Below the pieces are notes generated by a model. That model was not told the origin of the DNA. It ran no database searches and saw nothing but the letters and a program-made list of their open reading frames with translations. The position numbers and the translations under genes are program-made. From NCBI RefSeq assembly GCF_000315915.1, contig NC_020186.1, positions 620,001-684,000 on the forward strand: a stretch of DNA of 64,000 nt. Reading direction: 5' to 3'. Each line of letters opens with the position of its first letter. Positions within the stretch are counted from its first letter, which is position 1. The DNA comes from Henningerozyma blattae CBS 6284 (taxonomy: Eukaryota > Ascomycota > Saccharomycetes > Saccharomycetales > Saccharomycetaceae). Positions 10,458 to 17,301 of this stretch are shown in pieces.

Positions 10458-12575
10458 TTAACCATACAACTTATCAACATTAGATTGAACTGTTTCCAAA
10501 ATCTTTCTCCTCTTTAGCTTTGATGCGGAAGTGACATAACCATTTTGTGGGGTCCATTCACCATCGAATAAGACGATCCCTTGTAAGAATTCTATCCCGG
10601 TTAACCCTTGTTTTTTACCAGTGTCTAACATTTCTGAATGAATTTTTTCAATTAATTTTGGATTGCTTAATAATTCTTTCATTGTATCTTCATCATCAGG
10701 CACAATTTCCAATTGTTTTGGAGTCAATAAATTCAACGATTTAGCCAAAGTAATCACTTGTGGAATATTTGGTACTACAATGCCTACTGGCTTTGTCTTT
10801 GTTTGATCAGCATAGACACAAATGTTGGCAACATACTTATTTGATCTATAAATGGATTCTAATTTTTCCAAAGCGATATATTCACCGTTTTGAGTCTTTA
10901 CCAAATTCTTCTTACGATCAATAATCTTTAATTGACCATTTGGTGTCCATTCACCAATATCACCAGTACAGAACCAACCATCTTCAGTGAAAGCGTTTTT
11001 AGTTTCTTCAGGATTCTTATAATATTCAGATGTAACGTTTGGACCTTTGATTAAGACTTCACCTTGATTGTTTCTTGCCAAATAATTCAATTCTTCACAA
11101 TCTCTTAATTTAACAGTGACACAAGAAGTTAAATCACCAGCTACACCTAAAGTAAAATGGTTTGGATATGTAATTGTAGTAGAGGCACAAGTTTCAGTTA
11201 ACCCATAACCTAACAACATTGGACAAATTAAAGTGGTGATAAATTCCTGAGCATCTCTTGAAATTGGAGACCCACCGTTCAAAATATACTTCAAATGACC
11301 ACCGGTAGCTTGTTTAACTTTACCAAAGACTAAATTACCTAGAGTGTCACCACCTGGGATATGATAATTTTTCATATTAATCTTGGAATAATACACTGAC
11401 CAAAATAATTTTTGTTTGTAACCTGGTAATTTTTCAATTTGTGACAATATACCTTTACGAACAGTTTCCCAAACAGCTGCGACACCGACCATGACAGTTG
11501 GTTTAAAAGCTTCCAAATCACCAGTACAATTTCTTACAGAAGTGTTTGTCAAAGTCTTAACGGTAGCATAACCGATGATAGACCCCCAATACAAGGCCAA
11601 CAATTCAAAGACCAATTCAAAAATATGTGCCAAGGGTAAAAAGGCAATAATACGATCACCGGCACCTACAAACCCTAAAACGTTAATACTTGCACCACCG
11701 ACACCAGCAACAATATTCTTATGAGTTAACACAACACCTTTTGGATCCCCAGTGGAACCTGAAGTATACATGATACAAGATAAGTCATCTGCCTTTGGTG
11801 GATGAATATCTATAGAATCCTTCTTTGCATCACCGTTTGAAATCAATTTATCAAAAGAAACGATTTTCAAATCTGGTCTAATCTCTTTAATCTTCTCCAT
11901 AGCATCATGAGCATCTTGGTATAACTTACCGTTGAATCTCTTATCTTTGGGGTCTATTGGTTCGGAATGAATCAAAAATTTGATATTGACTTTAGTATTC
12001 TTCAAAGGATTAATCAACGTATGTAAAAGAGCGTTATCTGTGAAAACTGCTCTAGAATCAGTTTGAATCATTGAGTGGGTCAACCCAGATTCACCTAAAG
12101 TATCATAAGCAGTCACAGTGGAGATCGATTGAGATTGAGCCCCTAAAAACATTTGCAGCCATTTTTGAGAAGTGCTTGCATAGATGTGCACTTTGTCAGA
12201 TTCGCCCGGTTTCAACCCCAAATCGATCAGCCCACGACCAATAGCATGGATGTTAGATGCCAATTGAACATAAGTAATGTACTTATAGTCACTCAAGTGA
12301 TAATAAGACCAATTTTTCTCCACTTCAGTTTCTTTACCATTGATTGTTTTTTTAATAATTTTCTTCTCTGTAACCACATCGATGATGTTTCTCCAACCAA
12401 GAGCTTTTCTATCTTTACCACGTTGGCAACATTCTAATGCAAATTCATAAACCGTCTTACTTTTGAAATCCTTAGGTCTTTCAATAGAACCTTCTTTAGC
12501 ATAAGTAGCTCTTCTTGGAGCTGTTTCAGTCTTGTCCTTTTGTGGACCTACTTCAACAGAATACAATTTAGCCAT
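10458..12575 (-). CDS. FAA1/FAA4: Long-chain fatty acyl-CoA synthetase (Faa1/Faa4)
   Basis: Activates imported and endogenous long-chain fatty acids to acyl-CoA at the ER/plasma membrane/lipid droplet. 705 residues (S. cerevisiae Faa1: 700). Motifs of the ANL superfamily in order: P-loop YTSGSTGDPKG (270-280), the block PLAHIFELVFE, GGSPISRDAQEF, GYGLTETCASTT (A5), DGWFCTGDIGEW, DRKKNLVKTQNGEYIALEKLE and a C-terminal DGEWTPQNG.VTSA.KLKRR. The FAA1 (YOR317W) and FAA4 (YMR246W) neighbours are both present on this track, so it corresponds to the ancestor of the pair. Confidence 0.95.
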   Translation of the reverse strand: MAKLYSVEVGPQKDKTETAPRRATYAKEGSIERPKDFKSKTVYEFALECCQRGKDRKALGWRNIIDVVTEKKIIKKTINGKETEVEKNWSYYHLSDYKYITYVQLASNIHAIGRGLIDLGLKPGESDKVHIYASTSQKWLQMFLGAQSQSISTVTAYDTLGESGLTHSMIQTDSRAVFTDNALLHTLINPLKNTKVNIKFLIHSEPIDPKDKRFNGKLYQDAHDAMEKIKEIRPDLKIVSFDKLISNGDAKKDSIDIHPPKADDLSCIMYTSGSTGDPKGVVLTHKNIVAGVGGASINVLGFVGAGDRIIAFLPLAHIFELVFELLALYWGSIIGYATVKTLTNTSVRNCTGDLEAFKPTVMVGVAAVWETVRKGILSQIEKLPGYKQKLFWSVYYSKINMKNYHIPGGDTLGNLVFGKVKQATGGHLKYILNGGSPISRDAQEFITTLICPMLLGYGLTETCASTTITYPNHFTLGVAGDLTSCVTVKLRDCEELNYLARNNQGEVLIKGPNVTSEYYKNPEETKNAFTEDGWFCTGDIGEWTPNGQLKIIDRKKNLVKTQNGEYIALEKLESIYRSNKYVANICVYADQTKTKPVGIVVPNIPQVITLAKSLNLLTPKQLEIVPDDEDTMKELLSNPKLIEKIHSEMLDTGKKQGLTGIEFLQGIVLFDGEWTPQNGYVTSASKLKRRKILETVQSNVDKLYG

Positions 12576-13242
12576 GATTTAATAGATGATATAAAGGTAA
12601 AAAAAATATCAAAGAATAATAATAATAATTGGGTGTAATATAAGAAGACAATGAGATGATCAGTCACTTATAGATATTAAAACGATTACAACAATAACAA
12701 AGAGACAATAAAAAAATATAAACCAAAAAACCAAATAGAAAAAAATTTAAAGAGAATCGGTAGATGAATTCTAATGTCGATCAATTAACTAGTCAAGTTT
12801 TAAAATAAAAAAAAAAAGTTTAATTAATAAAGATAAATGATTATCATTAATTTGAACCAAATTAGATAACAAACTCCAATAAAAAAAAATAACCCCGTGC
12901 CGAAAAGAGGAGAATAATGAAAGTCAAAGTGTCAGCCGGATGTTTATTTTATTTTTATTATTTTTTTTTCTTATATCCGACGGGATTCGGATATAAGACG
13001 GCATAAGCACGTGCTATTTCATGTCACGTGTATAAAAAATAAAGGTCACGTTTTTTAATTTCTCTTTTTTATTTTTAAATTTCTCTGGGCGGGAAAAATC
13101 AGACAAAAATTTGCATTGGCTATTTATACGGCTCAGAAAAACACGGGGCGGCCGGGAATAAGACTAACTCCGAAGGAAAATCATTATAGGTGATGCACGT
13201 GACATTTAATTGTTAATCATCTAGTTAATTAGCAAGTTATCA
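12576..13242. promoter_or_regulatory. FAA1/FAA4 promoter with E-boxes
   Basis: About 670 bp between the FAA start codon and the stop of the Flp-like gene. It carries CACGTG at 13008-13013 (inside the palindrome AGCACGTGCT), 13025-13030 and 13196-13201, plus CACGTT at 13047-13052: bHLH-type sites (Cbf1, Pho4 or similar). A 30-bp inverted repeat lies at 12969-12998. Confidence 0.55.
12969..12998. repeat. Perfect inverted repeat, 12-bp arms, 6-bp spacer
   Basis: Left arm TCTTATATCCGA (12969-12980), spacer CGGGAT, right arm TCGGATATAAGA (12987-12998). The arms are exact reverse complements. It is about 245 bp beyond the stop codon of the Flp-like gene and about 395 bp upstream of the FAA start. 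It has the shape of a recombinase target (FRT has 13-bp arms and an 8-bp spacer) but also contains CCG-N8-CGG and two CGGNNNTNA half sites, so it may be a zinc-cluster activator site of FAA. Confidence 0.6.
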
Positions 13243-14787
13243 TTAGTGATAACTATGACTATCATCACTACTACTACTACTACTACTAGTGTATGGCATG
13301 GAGAGTGAAGGAGTCAGTATTTCAGGTAAAGTATCCAAAGCTAATCTTGCTTCTTTAGAAGTTACAGAATATTCGAGCAGAAATGCAAGAACATCATGGG
13401 GAACTATTTTAGCCCAGTGGCCATAATGCAATTGAAGATTATCACTATAAGTGAAAGAGGTAGGTTCTTCTGGTAATGTATGCACTCGTACCATTCTTTT
13501 CTTGTTATTGTTGGTATATTTTGATATTTGATAATATCCACTAATTATAGCCCTGGTAGAATCCCGTACAGAATGACATGGGGTCAAAGTAGTAGTAAAA
13601 TTTCTTTTTTTCAATTCACTACCATCTATTGGACAAACTTTTGTCCAATTACCCAAACGATGACCTTCATTTTGCAACCCTATTTTATTCAAATAGTTGA
13701 TCATCAAATAAATACCCAAATCAGTCTTTGGAGCGTTTTTCAATTTAAATAAATGATGAGCAGGATGAACACTCATTAGTTTTGTATAAGCTGCGCCAAC
13801 ACCTTCTTTAAAGAATTGATATTTTTGATTCACATCATTAGTTGTTTGTATAGGAGACTTATTGTTTTGCATTGGCACATATTCAAATGGCCCATTCTTG
13901 TTGATTTTTAGATATTCTTCTAATAATTGTAACATATCACATCCTCTTGTATATGCAGGAATAAATTGAACAGTTCTTGGAATATTATTAAGTGTATTGA
14001 AAGTATGTCCACAAACAATAGTACCAAGATATTTATTTTTCTTCAAATGGAAACTACTAGGATCTAATCGGATCAAATCACTAATACGGCATGCATTAGT
14101 GAACGTCAATACAGAGATTAATTTATATCGGATACAACTCATTTCTCTTGAATGGTTTTCAAACATTGCAAAACATTGACTATATATATCCCATGGATCA
14201 CCATTTTTATTTAAATATTCCAATACATTTTGGTTGAATTTCAAATTAGTTTCACTATTCCGAATATGTTTTGAATTTGTATTTGGTTCATTATGATTCT
14301 TTAATGGATTTTTGTCAATGATAAATAAATTTTCTTCTTTACGTCCATCAGACAATATACGAAATTTCCATGGTTTAAAGAACGATTGTTCATTTAAAAA
14401 AGTTTGTAATTGAATTAATCTATTACCACTAATCCGATATTTAAATTGAATCTTATGTCTCGAATAATCAATTTCAAGAGAATTGATAGTAATTGCTTTA
14501 TTTTTTCGATACGTCCCATATGTGACTCTCTTAATCTTAGGGAAAGTATGCAAAATATAATATGATAATAAACTACCAAATATTCGCTTGTCAATTATTA
14601 CTTTATCCTTACCGAATAACTCTTGGAAAAGTTCCTCATAAATCTCAAATCTCACTTGAATTAAAATGATGAAATAATCTTGGACAGTCTTGCATTCTTT
14701 AAAAGCTCGAATCAATTCTCGTACATTAGAATTAGAATATGCGTCAACTTTACCACTGGCAACGATGGAATTTTTTTCTCTTGGCAT
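13243..14787 (-). CDS. Chromosomal Flp recombinase-like protein, catalytic residues lost
   Basis: 514 residues, uninterrupted. It aligns with the 2-micron plasmid Flp recombinase (423 aa) from about residue 70 to 475: IKRVTYGTYRKN..TINSLEIDYS..KIQFKYR, then TFTNACRISD..RLDPSSF.L.KNKYLG, then a gapless 59-residue stretch from YQFFKEG to LGNW. By that alignment Flp Arg191 is kept (Arg234) and Trp330 is kept (Trp381), but Lys223 is Leu266, His305 is Asp356, Arg308 is Ile359, and Tyr343 is absent; the nearest aligned residue is Phe397. It therefore should bind DNA but not cleave it. The C-terminus is a Ser/Asp tail coded by a CTA/ACT repeat. It is inserted between FAA1/FAA4 and COA6, which are close neighbours in S. 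cerevisiae. Plasmid-derived nuclear genes are known in yeasts, usually as pseudogenes. Confidence 0.85.
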   Translation of the reverse strand: MPREKNSIVASGKVDAYSNSNVRELIRAFKECKTVQDYFIILIQVRFEIYEELFQELFGKDKVIIDKRIFGSLLSYYILHTFPKIKRVTYGTYRKNKAITINSLEIDYSRHKIQFKYRISGNRLIQLQTFLNEQSFFKPWKFRILSDGRKEENLFIIDKNPLKNHNEPNTNSKHIRNSETNLKFNQNVLEYLNKNGDPWDIYSQCFAMFENHSREMSCIRYKLISVLTFTNACRISDLIRLDPSSFHLKKNKYLGTIVCGHTFNTLNNIPRTVQFIPAYTRGCDMLQLLEEYLKINKNGPFEYVPMQNNKSPIQTTNDVNQKYQFFKEGVGAAYTKLMSVHPAHHLFKLKNAPKTDLGIYLMINYLNKIGLQNEGHRLGNWTKVCPIDGSELKKRNFTTTLTPCHSVRDSTRAIISGYYQISKYTNNNKKRMVRVHTLPEEPTSFTYSDNLQLHYGHWAKIVPHDVLAFLLEYSVTSKEARLALDTLPEILTPSLSMPYTSSSSSSSDDSHSYH

Positions 14788-15291
14788 ATTAATTTTTAAA
14801 CTTTAAAAAACAACAAGAACAAAACAGACAATCCCAAAACCACCAAAAAGAATGTACAAAATAACAACTATGCAGGTACAGTTTTTTTTTTTTTTTTTCT
14901 TATTCGTATATTCAAGACTCTATAACTTGTTCTTTTCTTTGGAATTTTAACCCTAACTTTGTTTGTAATTAGTTAATTACTACCCTTACCTAAAAATTTA
15001 ACTACTTCCTATTATTCTATTTTTGGGTTTTCCGTTTTAGTACATAATTGTAATACCGTACTACCTATTTTACTTTAAAATANNNNNNNNNNNNNNNNNN
15101 NNGTTTCCTTTTTAGCATATTGTAATCCGTACACCATTTTCTTAAAAAAAATAGTAAAAATCATTTATTAGGGGTTCTGGTATTTTGATATAATAGATAT
15201 TATGCATATAATACATTACAATTATATTTAATTGTAAACGAACTATCGAGCTAGAAACTACTACTACTACTATTAATAGCCTAATATCATT
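14788..15291. other. Intergenic region with assembly gap
   Basis: Divergent interval between the Flp-like gene and COA6, with a poly-T tract at 14881-14898 and the 20-N gap. Short CTA repeats precede COA6. No gene seen. Confidence 0.5.
15083..15102. other. 20-N assembly gap
   Basis: Twenty consecutive Ns, a typical fixed-size gap of unknown true length, in the shared upstream region of the Flp-like gene and COA6. Confidence 0.99.
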
Positions 15292-15636
15292 ATGTTTGGA
15301 TTCATAACGGATTACTTCTCTACGAAGAAGTCATCTGACGATATGCTTACAAGAAGCGCAAGAGATCAATGCTGGAATGCTCGAGATGTTTACTTCTCTT
15401 GTCTAGATTCACATGATGTGATTAGTCCCAATTCAAAAAATGCAAAGGATATTTGTACTTCAGAAAAAAACAAATATAATGAAAATTGTGCCATTTCTTG
15501 GGTACGTTATTTCAATGATAAGAGACTTGTCGATTATAAAAAGAAAAAATTGATGGAAGAAAATGAAAATGTCACATTTGTTGATGTTAATCCAGCATTG
15601 TTAGAAAAAAAGATAATACTCCTCCATATGCAATAA
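15292..15636 (+). CDS. COA6: Cytochrome c oxidase assembly factor Coa6
   Basis: A twin CX9C-type intermembrane-space protein that helps deliver copper to Cox2. 114 residues (S. cerevisiae Coa6: 104). The cysteines are C27-x9-C37 and C55-x10-C66, the unequal CX9C/CX10C spacing that marks Coa6. Flanking blocks RDQCWNARD.YF.CLD and NENCAISWVRYF.DKR match the family. No cleavable presequence is expected because import is by the Mia40 relay. Strand and position fit YMR244C-A. Confidence 0.93.
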   Translation: MFGFITDYFSTKKSSDDMLTRSARDQCWNARDVYFSCLDSHDVISPNSKNAKDICTSEKNKYNENCAISWVRYFNDKRLVDYKKKKLMEENENVTFVDVNPALLEKKIILLHMQ

Positions 15637-16239: not shown

Positions 16240-17301
16240 TTAAACTGTTACAGAAGGAGCGTCACCTGCAGCAGCAGAACTAGATTCCCCTGGTTCTTCC
16301 TCATCTTCACTGTTTTCAATTTCAGTTTCATTATCACCAATGGCAGTTTCACCTGAATTTCTTGGTGACATTGGCAATTCTTTACCAGCATAACGTTTTT
16401 CTTCTGAGCTTGTTTGCTGTGGTCTTGGTAAAGAGGTATTAATACCTGGTAAACAATCATATCTGTTAATAATCCAGGATAAATAACCTGGGTAAATGGC
16501 GAATAGACATAAATCTAAAATACCGTAAAAGACAGCTTCTGCATCTGGAGTGATGGCATTACCACCTTCAGATAGACCCCAACAAACAGTGTATAGTAAT
16601 ACAATGATAGTGTGGGTAAGGAAGACGCATAATTGGAAACCTCTAATCTTCAAGTCAACAATTTGTCTCTTTAGTTTAATACCTTCAATTGTTAGCAAAA
16701 CAAAGACACCCATAACCCAATAACCCCATTTATAAGTCGAATGAATTAAAATACCAACTAGCAAACAAACAATCCAATAGGTGGTACCTAGAATTTGAAC
16801 TAATAGAGAATGTGCAATATCCCAAAAGAAGAAATCAATATTTTCACCTGCATGGACACATAGAGAAGCCATTTCATTTAAAAAGTAAAGAACAGGCCAA
16901 CTTAATACCCATCCAATAAATTTACAATAAAAGACCTGTCTAACGTTTGGATATTTATTTGTAATACTGTGACTAACATCTTCACCTCTAAATTCAGCTT
17001 GAATACCACCCCAACCTAAATTGGATGCATAAGTATAGTATGCAAATGATTCAAAAATACAAATAATAAATGGACCTGCAATGGTATATCTTTGTAGCTT
17101 ATTATATTCTTTTTTGTTTTCGACATAAAAAAACATAATAGCATAAATACCACCTAAGAACCCAAAAACTGAGAAGACAGTCCACAACCAATCTGAACCA
17201 CTTTCAGTCAAGTGAATATCGGTACCAGTTGGAGGATTTACATGAACTGCTCTATTACCTCTCTTAAACAGATTTACATAACCATTTTCTAGTGACGACA
17301 T
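16240..17301 (-). CDS. MRH1/YRO2: Mrh1/Yro2/Hsp30-family seven-helix opsin-like membrane protein
   Basis: 353 residues with seven hydrophobic segments between about residues 35 and 280 and an acidic Ser/Glu-rich cytoplasmic tail. Architecture and blocks (GSDWLW..F..F, GPFIICIFESFAYYTYASNLGW, R.VFYCKFIGWVLSWPVLYFL, WDIAHSLLVQILGT) are those of the fungal opsin-related family that includes Mrh1, Yro2 and Hsp30 at the plasma membrane. In helix 7 the segment GILDLCLFAIYPGYL keeps the Asp but has no retinal-binding Lys (Phe at the equivalent place), so it is an opsin-related protein, not a light-driven pump. Its location beside COA6 differs from the three S. cerevisiae loci. Confidence 0.88.
   Translation of the reverse strand: MSSLENGYVNLFKRGNRAVHVNPPTGTDIHLTESGSDWLWTVFSVFGFLGGIYAIMFFYVENKKEYNKLQRYTIAGPFIICIFESFAYYTYASNLGWGGIQAEFRGEDVSHSITNKYPNVRQVFYCKFIGWVLSWPVLYFLNEMASLCVHAGENIDFFFWDIAHSLLVQILGTTYWIVCLLVGILIHSTYKWGYWVMGVFVLLTIEGIKLKRQIVDLKIRGFQLCVFLTHTIIVLLYTVCWGLSEGGNAITPDAEAVFYGILDLCLFAIYPGYLSWIINRYDCLPGINTSLPRPQQTSSEEKRYAGKELPMSPRNSGETAIGDNETEIENSEDEEEPGESSSAAAGDAPSVTV

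Follow-up and report, generated by a model that had tools for sequence, protein, structure and literature searches.

The Flp-like gene described here lies on chromosome B of Henningerozyma (Tetrapisispora) blattae CBS 6284, at contig positions 633246-634787. It was analysed within a 64-kb stretch of DNA (620001-684000 of the same contig), referred to here as the window, and the features of the locus are listed in Table 1. The gene runs from an ATG to a TAA with no internal stop across its 514 codons, and the surrounding open frame of 519 is just 5 residues longer. In codon use and GC3, the gene is not separable from the 23 other tabulated genes of the window. A perfect short inverted repeat read by eye, AGTTATCA-TTAG-TGATAACT, spans its stop codon at 13235-13254.

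Table 1. Features at and around the Flp-like gene (window positions).
Feature	Position	Strand	Basis
AMP-binding gene (FAA1/FAA4-type, presumably), flanking; its start points toward the Flp-like gene	10458..12575	(-)	domain match
Perfect palindrome with arms of 12 bp and a spacer of 6 bp	12969..12998		repeat scan
Flp-like gene, 514 aa, K/H/R/Y catalytic residues replaced	13243..14787	(-)	ORF and alignments
Flp_C domain, aa 183-433, whole profile 1-254	13489..14241	(-)	Pfam
Span with the six active-site positions: R234 (kept), L266, D356, I359, W381 (kept), F397	13597..14088	(-)	alignments
Weak Flp_N match, aa 84-148	14344..14538	(-)	Pfam, 20.8 bits
20-N run, either a gap in the assembly or masked sequence, beyond the Flp-like gene on the COA6-type side	15083..15102		sequence
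COX6B-domain gene (COA6-type, presumably), flanking, divergent	15292..15636	(+)	domain match

The two flanking genes, presumably of the FAA1/FAA4 and COA6 types in line with an earlier note on this DNA, are both transcribed away from the Flp-like gene between them. In S. cerevisiae, COA6 presumably adjoins FAA4, with nothing substantial separating them. From the FAA-type gene to the Flp-like gene the sequence contains no N, and a misjoined plasmid contig is therefore an unlikely source of the gene. No tRNA genes were found in the window, and no second copy of the intergenic DNA of the locus was found. A relic of REP1 was also sought with a typed-in Rep1 sequence; there was no match, and the query had no positive control, which makes the result uninformative.

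A genome of 14.0 Mb on 10 chromosomes has been described for this species (PMC5499181). The assembly used here comprises 14.04 Mb (14,041,469 bases) in 10 contigs, in which the protein itself, the Pfam Flp_C profile and a typed-in S. cerevisiae Flp, used as queries, recovered a single Flp-like locus. All ten contigs are chromosome-sized, 0.49-2.70 Mb, and none has the size of a plasmid. The plasmid location with FRT-type inverted repeats that marks an active Flp was thus not found, the gene being chromosomal. Nuclear sequences of plasmid and viral origin, known as NUPAVs, are mostly pseudogenes, and a tRNA gene is the neighbour of many of them. Like these, the gene is a plasmid-type sequence inside nuclear DNA, on a chromosomal contig that carries TBLA_0B genes, and its assignment to the NUPAVs implies a putative origin from a plasmid by capture. 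It differs from them in its intact frame of 514 codons and in the absence of a detected tRNA gene from the window.

Similarity to Flp and state of the active site

Comparisons were made with the Flp recombinase of the S. cerevisiae 2-micron plasmid, and with the R recombinase of plasmid pSR1 of Zygosaccharomyces rouxii, both entered as typed-in sequences. The protein matches the Pfam Flp_C profile over all of its positions (1-254 of 254) with 492 bits (E 4.2e-148; cut-off 25), more than the typed-in S. cerevisiae Flp (446 bits), and the typed-in R scores only 147; since it outscores S. cerevisiae Flp, the protein or a near twin probably belongs to the Flp_C seed, and therefore the 492 bits are not evidence of unusual conservation. 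The Flp_N match remains under the cut-off of 25, and the typed-in references reach 101 (S. cerevisiae Flp) and 112 (R). The relationship is also recovered by phmmer with the Flp of PDB entry 1m6x (E 9.7e-28) and by hhalign against a two-row profile of Flp and R (probability 99.5, E 7e-23). Some 27-28% of the aligned residues are identical to S. cerevisiae Flp (114/410 or 112/411, depending on the alignment), and identity to R amounts to 98/457. Two stretches, of 67 and 65 residues, align with Flp without a gap, and the gapless block of 59 residues given in the earlier note is compatible with these.

In Flp, Lys223 is the general-acid lysine and Tyr343 the nucleophilic tyrosine of an active site with the residues R-K-H-R-W-Y. 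Four alignment methods (phmmer, MAFFT pairwise, MAFFT three-way and hhalign) agree on the corresponding positions: R191 is R234, K223 is L266, H305 is D356, R308 is I359, W330 is W381 and Y343 is F397. Two of the six residues are thus retained, namely the first arginine and the tryptophan, and all six are present in the typed-in R recombinase. The anchors N-x-P-K-x-x-x-G and G-N-W are common to Flp and the Flp-like protein, and Phe397 stands in register with Tyr343. Two checks are independent of any alignment: Lys294 and Lys297 are the only lysines in residues 253-300, with none in 253-293, and tyrosine is absent from residues 366-417. Because the lysine, histidine, second arginine and tyrosine are lost in all four alignments and in these residue-presence checks, Flp-type catalysis by this protein is considered very unlikely as judged from its sequence.

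These results bear out what the earlier note had read from the letters: an unbroken Flp homologue of 514 codons in which Arg191 and Trp330 are kept and the other four residues replaced. The note named Phe397 only as the nearest residue to the missing tyrosine, and the alignments place it in register. It had also held that an alignment restoring His, Arg and Tyr at the active site would speak against its reading, and none of the four methods produced one.

The protein contains one HxxR, at residues 405-408, followed by Tyr418 and Tyr419, and on these grounds one could imagine a still active recombinase whose catalytic centre has been rebuilt. This is hardly credible: the HxxR lies downstream of F397 and of the GNW motif, which is the wrong order, no alignment sets the catalytic His and Arg there, Y418 and Y419 align with a YY pair of Flp itself, and D356, I359 and F397 occupy the active site in all four alignment methods.

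Taken as a whole, the protein resembles 2-micron Flp in its full Flp_C domain, GNW motif, first catalytic arginine and tryptophan, and basic C-domain. Unlike 2-micron Flp, it is encoded on a chromosome, has 514 rather than 423 residues, has the K/H/R/Y residues replaced and has an Flp_N match under the cut-off. With the R recombinase it shares membership of the family, although R retains all active-site residues.

Retention of the reading frame

Loss of catalytic residues together with a kept frame, the combination that marks a domesticated recombinase, was found in this gene. Neutral decay was modelled from the present sequence with a codon model and A+T-rich mutation, the event of interest being an open frame with at least 4 of the 6 active-site positions changed. 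The joint probability under neutrality peaks at 1.5e-5, 1.9e-6 and 4.9e-7 for 0, 0.05 and 0.1 indels per substitution, respectively, and a separate simulation of 4000 genes under each of 27 settings produced the event in 0 of 108,000 cases; these figures assume the mutation parameters, count as changed any residue differing from the present one, are silent on what selection targeted and leave room for selection on a plasmid before capture. Selection on the reading frame after the catalytic loss is therefore likely by calculation, and at least most of that loss should have occurred while the frame was being maintained.

The divergence of the protein is considerable. In a three-sequence tree, the branches measure 1.68 (Flp-like), 0.58 (Flp) and 1.18 (R) substitutions per residue. 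The Flp-like branch is faster than that of Flp (74 against 33 unique changes, p 9e-5) and not significantly faster than that of R (74 against 55, p 0.11). Of the columns shared by Flp and R, 53/127 non-catalytic and 2/6 catalytic ones are retained (Fisher p=1.0). Since catalytic and other shared residues were lost at an equal rate, the active site does not appear to have been singled out for loss, to the extent that a comparison with just two references can show it. Retention differs among residue classes, with 16/20 of the shared aromatic residues kept against 37/107 of the others (p 3e-4), and just 6/20 of the shared K/R/H residues kept. On this pattern, the fold looks better retained than the basic contacts, and the aromatic retention could predate the capture. 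The excess of K+R over D+E is +15 in the C-domain of both the Flp-like protein and Flp (+21 and +16 in the whole proteins) and 0 in that of R (31 K+R, 31 D+E; +10 in the whole protein); because R is an active enzyme with a C-domain charge of 0, net charge alone proves little.

The equal rate of loss would also suit a decaying NUPAV, that is, a functionless captured plasmid gene that is still unbroken by chance. NUPAVs have been recognised in 40% of 20 Saccharomycotina genomes (PMC5499181), and no orthologs of the gene were found by searches whose results lacked S. cerevisiae Flp as well. This explanation is nevertheless rather unlikely, as it has to accommodate 514 codons without a stop and the neutral probability and simulations given above.

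In a collection of 5.8 billion proteins, a single-sequence query returned only the gene itself among 6132 candidates, and S. cerevisiae Flp was missed. An alignment query that included the typed-in Flp and R likewise returned only the gene itself among 6343 candidates, again without S. cerevisiae Flp. A control search with the neighbouring HSP30/MRH1-type gene returned 231 proteins, and those listed include proteins of Naumovozyma, Kazachstania, Zygosaccharomyces, Torulaspora and Lachancea. The absence of orthologs is weak evidence against domestication because the searches missed S. cerevisiae Flp, though other Saccharomycetaceae were covered. Among viral contigs, 92 pattern matches were obtained, of which zero were confirmed as Flp-like relatives, and none were found in plasmid records.

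Selection on the frame may also have acted elsewhere. The catalytic loss and much of the divergence could have occurred on a plasmid that kept the gene for a non-catalytic role, with the chromosomal copy being recent; the long branch, which is not divisible into plasmid and chromosome portions, leaves room for this. However, we know of no plasmid with an Flp kept for a non-catalytic role, and this course of events appears quite improbable. Flp-driven amplification counters plasmid loss (PMC6594588), which also speaks against it.

Possible roles of a non-cutting Flp-like protein

The sequence of events that would best explain the locus begins in the lineage of H. blattae, where a chromosome would have taken up an FLP gene from a plasmid of the 2-micron family at the point where the FAA-type and COA6-type genes diverge. 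The recombinase chemistry would then have been lost with the general-acid lysine, the histidine, the second arginine and the nucleophilic tyrosine, and selection would have maintained the reading frame and probably also the fold. The host may be using the product in the nucleus, as a protein that no longer cuts DNA and still attaches to DNA or chromatin, or pairs with partner proteins, by way of its Flp fold. On balance, it seems probable that a captured and catalytically dead FLP has been kept in this way. We infer that the gene came from a plasmid by capture, is expressed, and encodes a protein that binds DNA and benefits the host.

The retained frame suggests that the host kept the protein for another job, and binding of DNA, chromatin or proteins through the Flp fold would be the most economical function, as in the Crypton-derived proteins Cbf2/Ndc10 and Gcr1 and the animal DUF3504 proteins (PMC3212892). 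These are tyrosine recombinases that became host proteins without their catalytic residues. The DUF3504 proteins have lost the tyrosine and the second arginine, and also the histidine except in KCTD1, and are still expressed and conserved (PMC3212892). They and the Cbf2/Ndc10 and Gcr1 proteins differ from the present case in being derived from Cryptons and not from Flp, in being conserved across species and in that several have known roles.

The earlier note had proposed domestication as a DNA-binding protein. The calculations on the frame favour a chromosomal Flp homologue that lacks catalysis and whose frame has been kept, and its domestication as a DNA-binding protein is putative. According to PMC4381057, association with FRT is nearly abolished in the Flp mutant K223A, where a response is seen in only about 3% of DNA molecules. 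Binding is weaker in R308A, and the H305A mutant retains both binding and cleavage. Since Flp needs Lys223 for FRT association, the loss of this residue counts against a DNA-binding reading, and, with K223 and R308 both missing, tight binding of DNA would depend on newly acquired contacts. The equal loss of shared residues, the low Flp_N score, the losses of K223 and R308 and the C-domain charge of 0 in R count against a simple domestication.

The main functional rival to a host role in binding DNA, chromatin or proteins is interference with plasmids: when a 2-micron-type plasmid invades, the dead Flp would join its active Flp or compete with it and block copy-number amplification, acting as a trans-dominant restriction factor derived from a gene of the parasite itself. 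Flp subunits share their active site, and R191A and Y343F complement each other in cleavage, so that mixed Flp assemblies do form (PMC6594588). Plasmid amplification depends on Flp (PMC6594588; PMC7652418), and hosts evolve plasmid restriction, as in the case of MMS21 (PMC7652418). The assembly shows no plasmid, as all ten of its contigs are chromosome-sized, a point in favour of this reading. To our knowledge, though, no plasmid has been described from H. blattae, and hetero-assembly at 27-28% identity to Flp is putative. The losses of K223 and R308 should also weaken binding to FRT (PMC4381057), and overall plasmid interference is judged unlikely. A wider version, in which the dead Flp either poisons the Flp assemblies of invading 2-micron-type plasmids or binds chromosomal DNA or chromatin, as a younger and independent rerun of the route by which Ndc10, a protein of point centromeres, came by its tyrosine-recombinase fold, is conceivable but doubtful.

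The claim of the earlier note that an inactive domesticated Flp had not been described was not contradicted by a literature search of titles and abstract openings, with few subscription papers, in which no catalytically dead chromosomal Flp was found; Frank and Wolfe 2009 may list related loci of other species. The general kind is already known, namely non-catalytic domesticated tyrosine recombinases (PMC3212892), and Flp as their source appears to be new. Chromosomal capture of 2-micron genes together with cis-acting elements has been proposed as the origin of point centromeres (Malik and Henikoff, cited in PMC5499181), and Ndc10 is related to tyrosine recombinases (PMC6077249; PMC3212892). 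If the preferred reading of a captured, non-cutting host protein is true, an inactive and retained Flp would represent an experimentally accessible case of a capture step of the point-centromere type, in one culturable strain. The gene would also allow the reuse of Flp by the host to be tested, as a chromatin protein as opposed to a factor in plasmid immunity.

The palindrome and the HSP30/MRH1-type neighbour

The perfect palindrome of Table 1 lies 244 bp beyond the stop codon that ends the Flp-like frame, and the ATG of the FAA-type gene follows 394 bp downstream of it. In a first scan (13-bp arms, at most 2 mismatches, spacer 6-10), 2 overlapping matches were obtained, where 60 shuffles averaged 0.93 and reached 4 at most, and by this looser scan the palindrome is therefore not unusual. 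Restricted to at least 4 G/C per arm, the same scan gave 2 matches against a mean of 0.08. It is also the sole perfect inverted repeat in the window with arms of at least 11, a spacer of 0-20 and at least 4 G/C per arm. In 200 kb from 20 other stretches, three comparable repeats were observed, all with 11-bp arms and with spacers of 3, 4 and 12, and zero repeats with arms of at least 12 and a spacer of 5-9. When the flanks were simulated as 3000 Markov sequences, 20 of these contained a perfect repeat with arms of at least 12 and a spacer of 5-9, none of them with at least 4 G/C. Most of these counts thus mark the palindrome as rare.

The geometry of 12+6+12 fits a site of a tyrosine recombinase, and the palindrome was considered as a captured FRT. 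It was rejected as such because its left half, TATATCCGACGG, recurs: 6 genomic copies were counted, and the reversed control had 0. These are located at 12972-12983 of the window and at C1:2082410, C2:402870, C2:1103179, C7:208220 and C10:447989. Three of the six continue as TATATCCGACGGATAT, a fourth has AATATCCGACGGATAT about 25 bases off, and a second similar stretch, read by eye, is close by at each of the five other loci, which points to a promoter-type motif. The full palindrome has one genomic copy. If up to 3 mismatches are allowed, it matches at one further position, compared with 3 matches of its reversed control. For the shorter core ATCCGWCGGAT, 4 sites were counted and 2 for its control, while no genomic enrichment is seen for the 10-base half-site TTATATCCGA, with 24 matches against 35 for the control. 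The palindrome is thus more likely to be a host promoter site pair before the FAA-type gene than a captured FRT, as far as these sequence counts go, and a role as target of the dead Flp would be speculative.

The HSP30/MRH1-type gene of the control search encodes a membrane protein and lies at 16240-17301. Nine more H. blattae proteins are among the matches listed (TBLA_0B01690-01720, 0B06820-06890 and 0D00670-00690), and these genes represent a family expansion in H. blattae. The closest of the matches listed is protein P0003, which is encoded on a contig of 30,235 bases and is 62% identical to the product of 16240-17301; judging from this identity, its source is perhaps a sequenced close relative of H. 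blattae.
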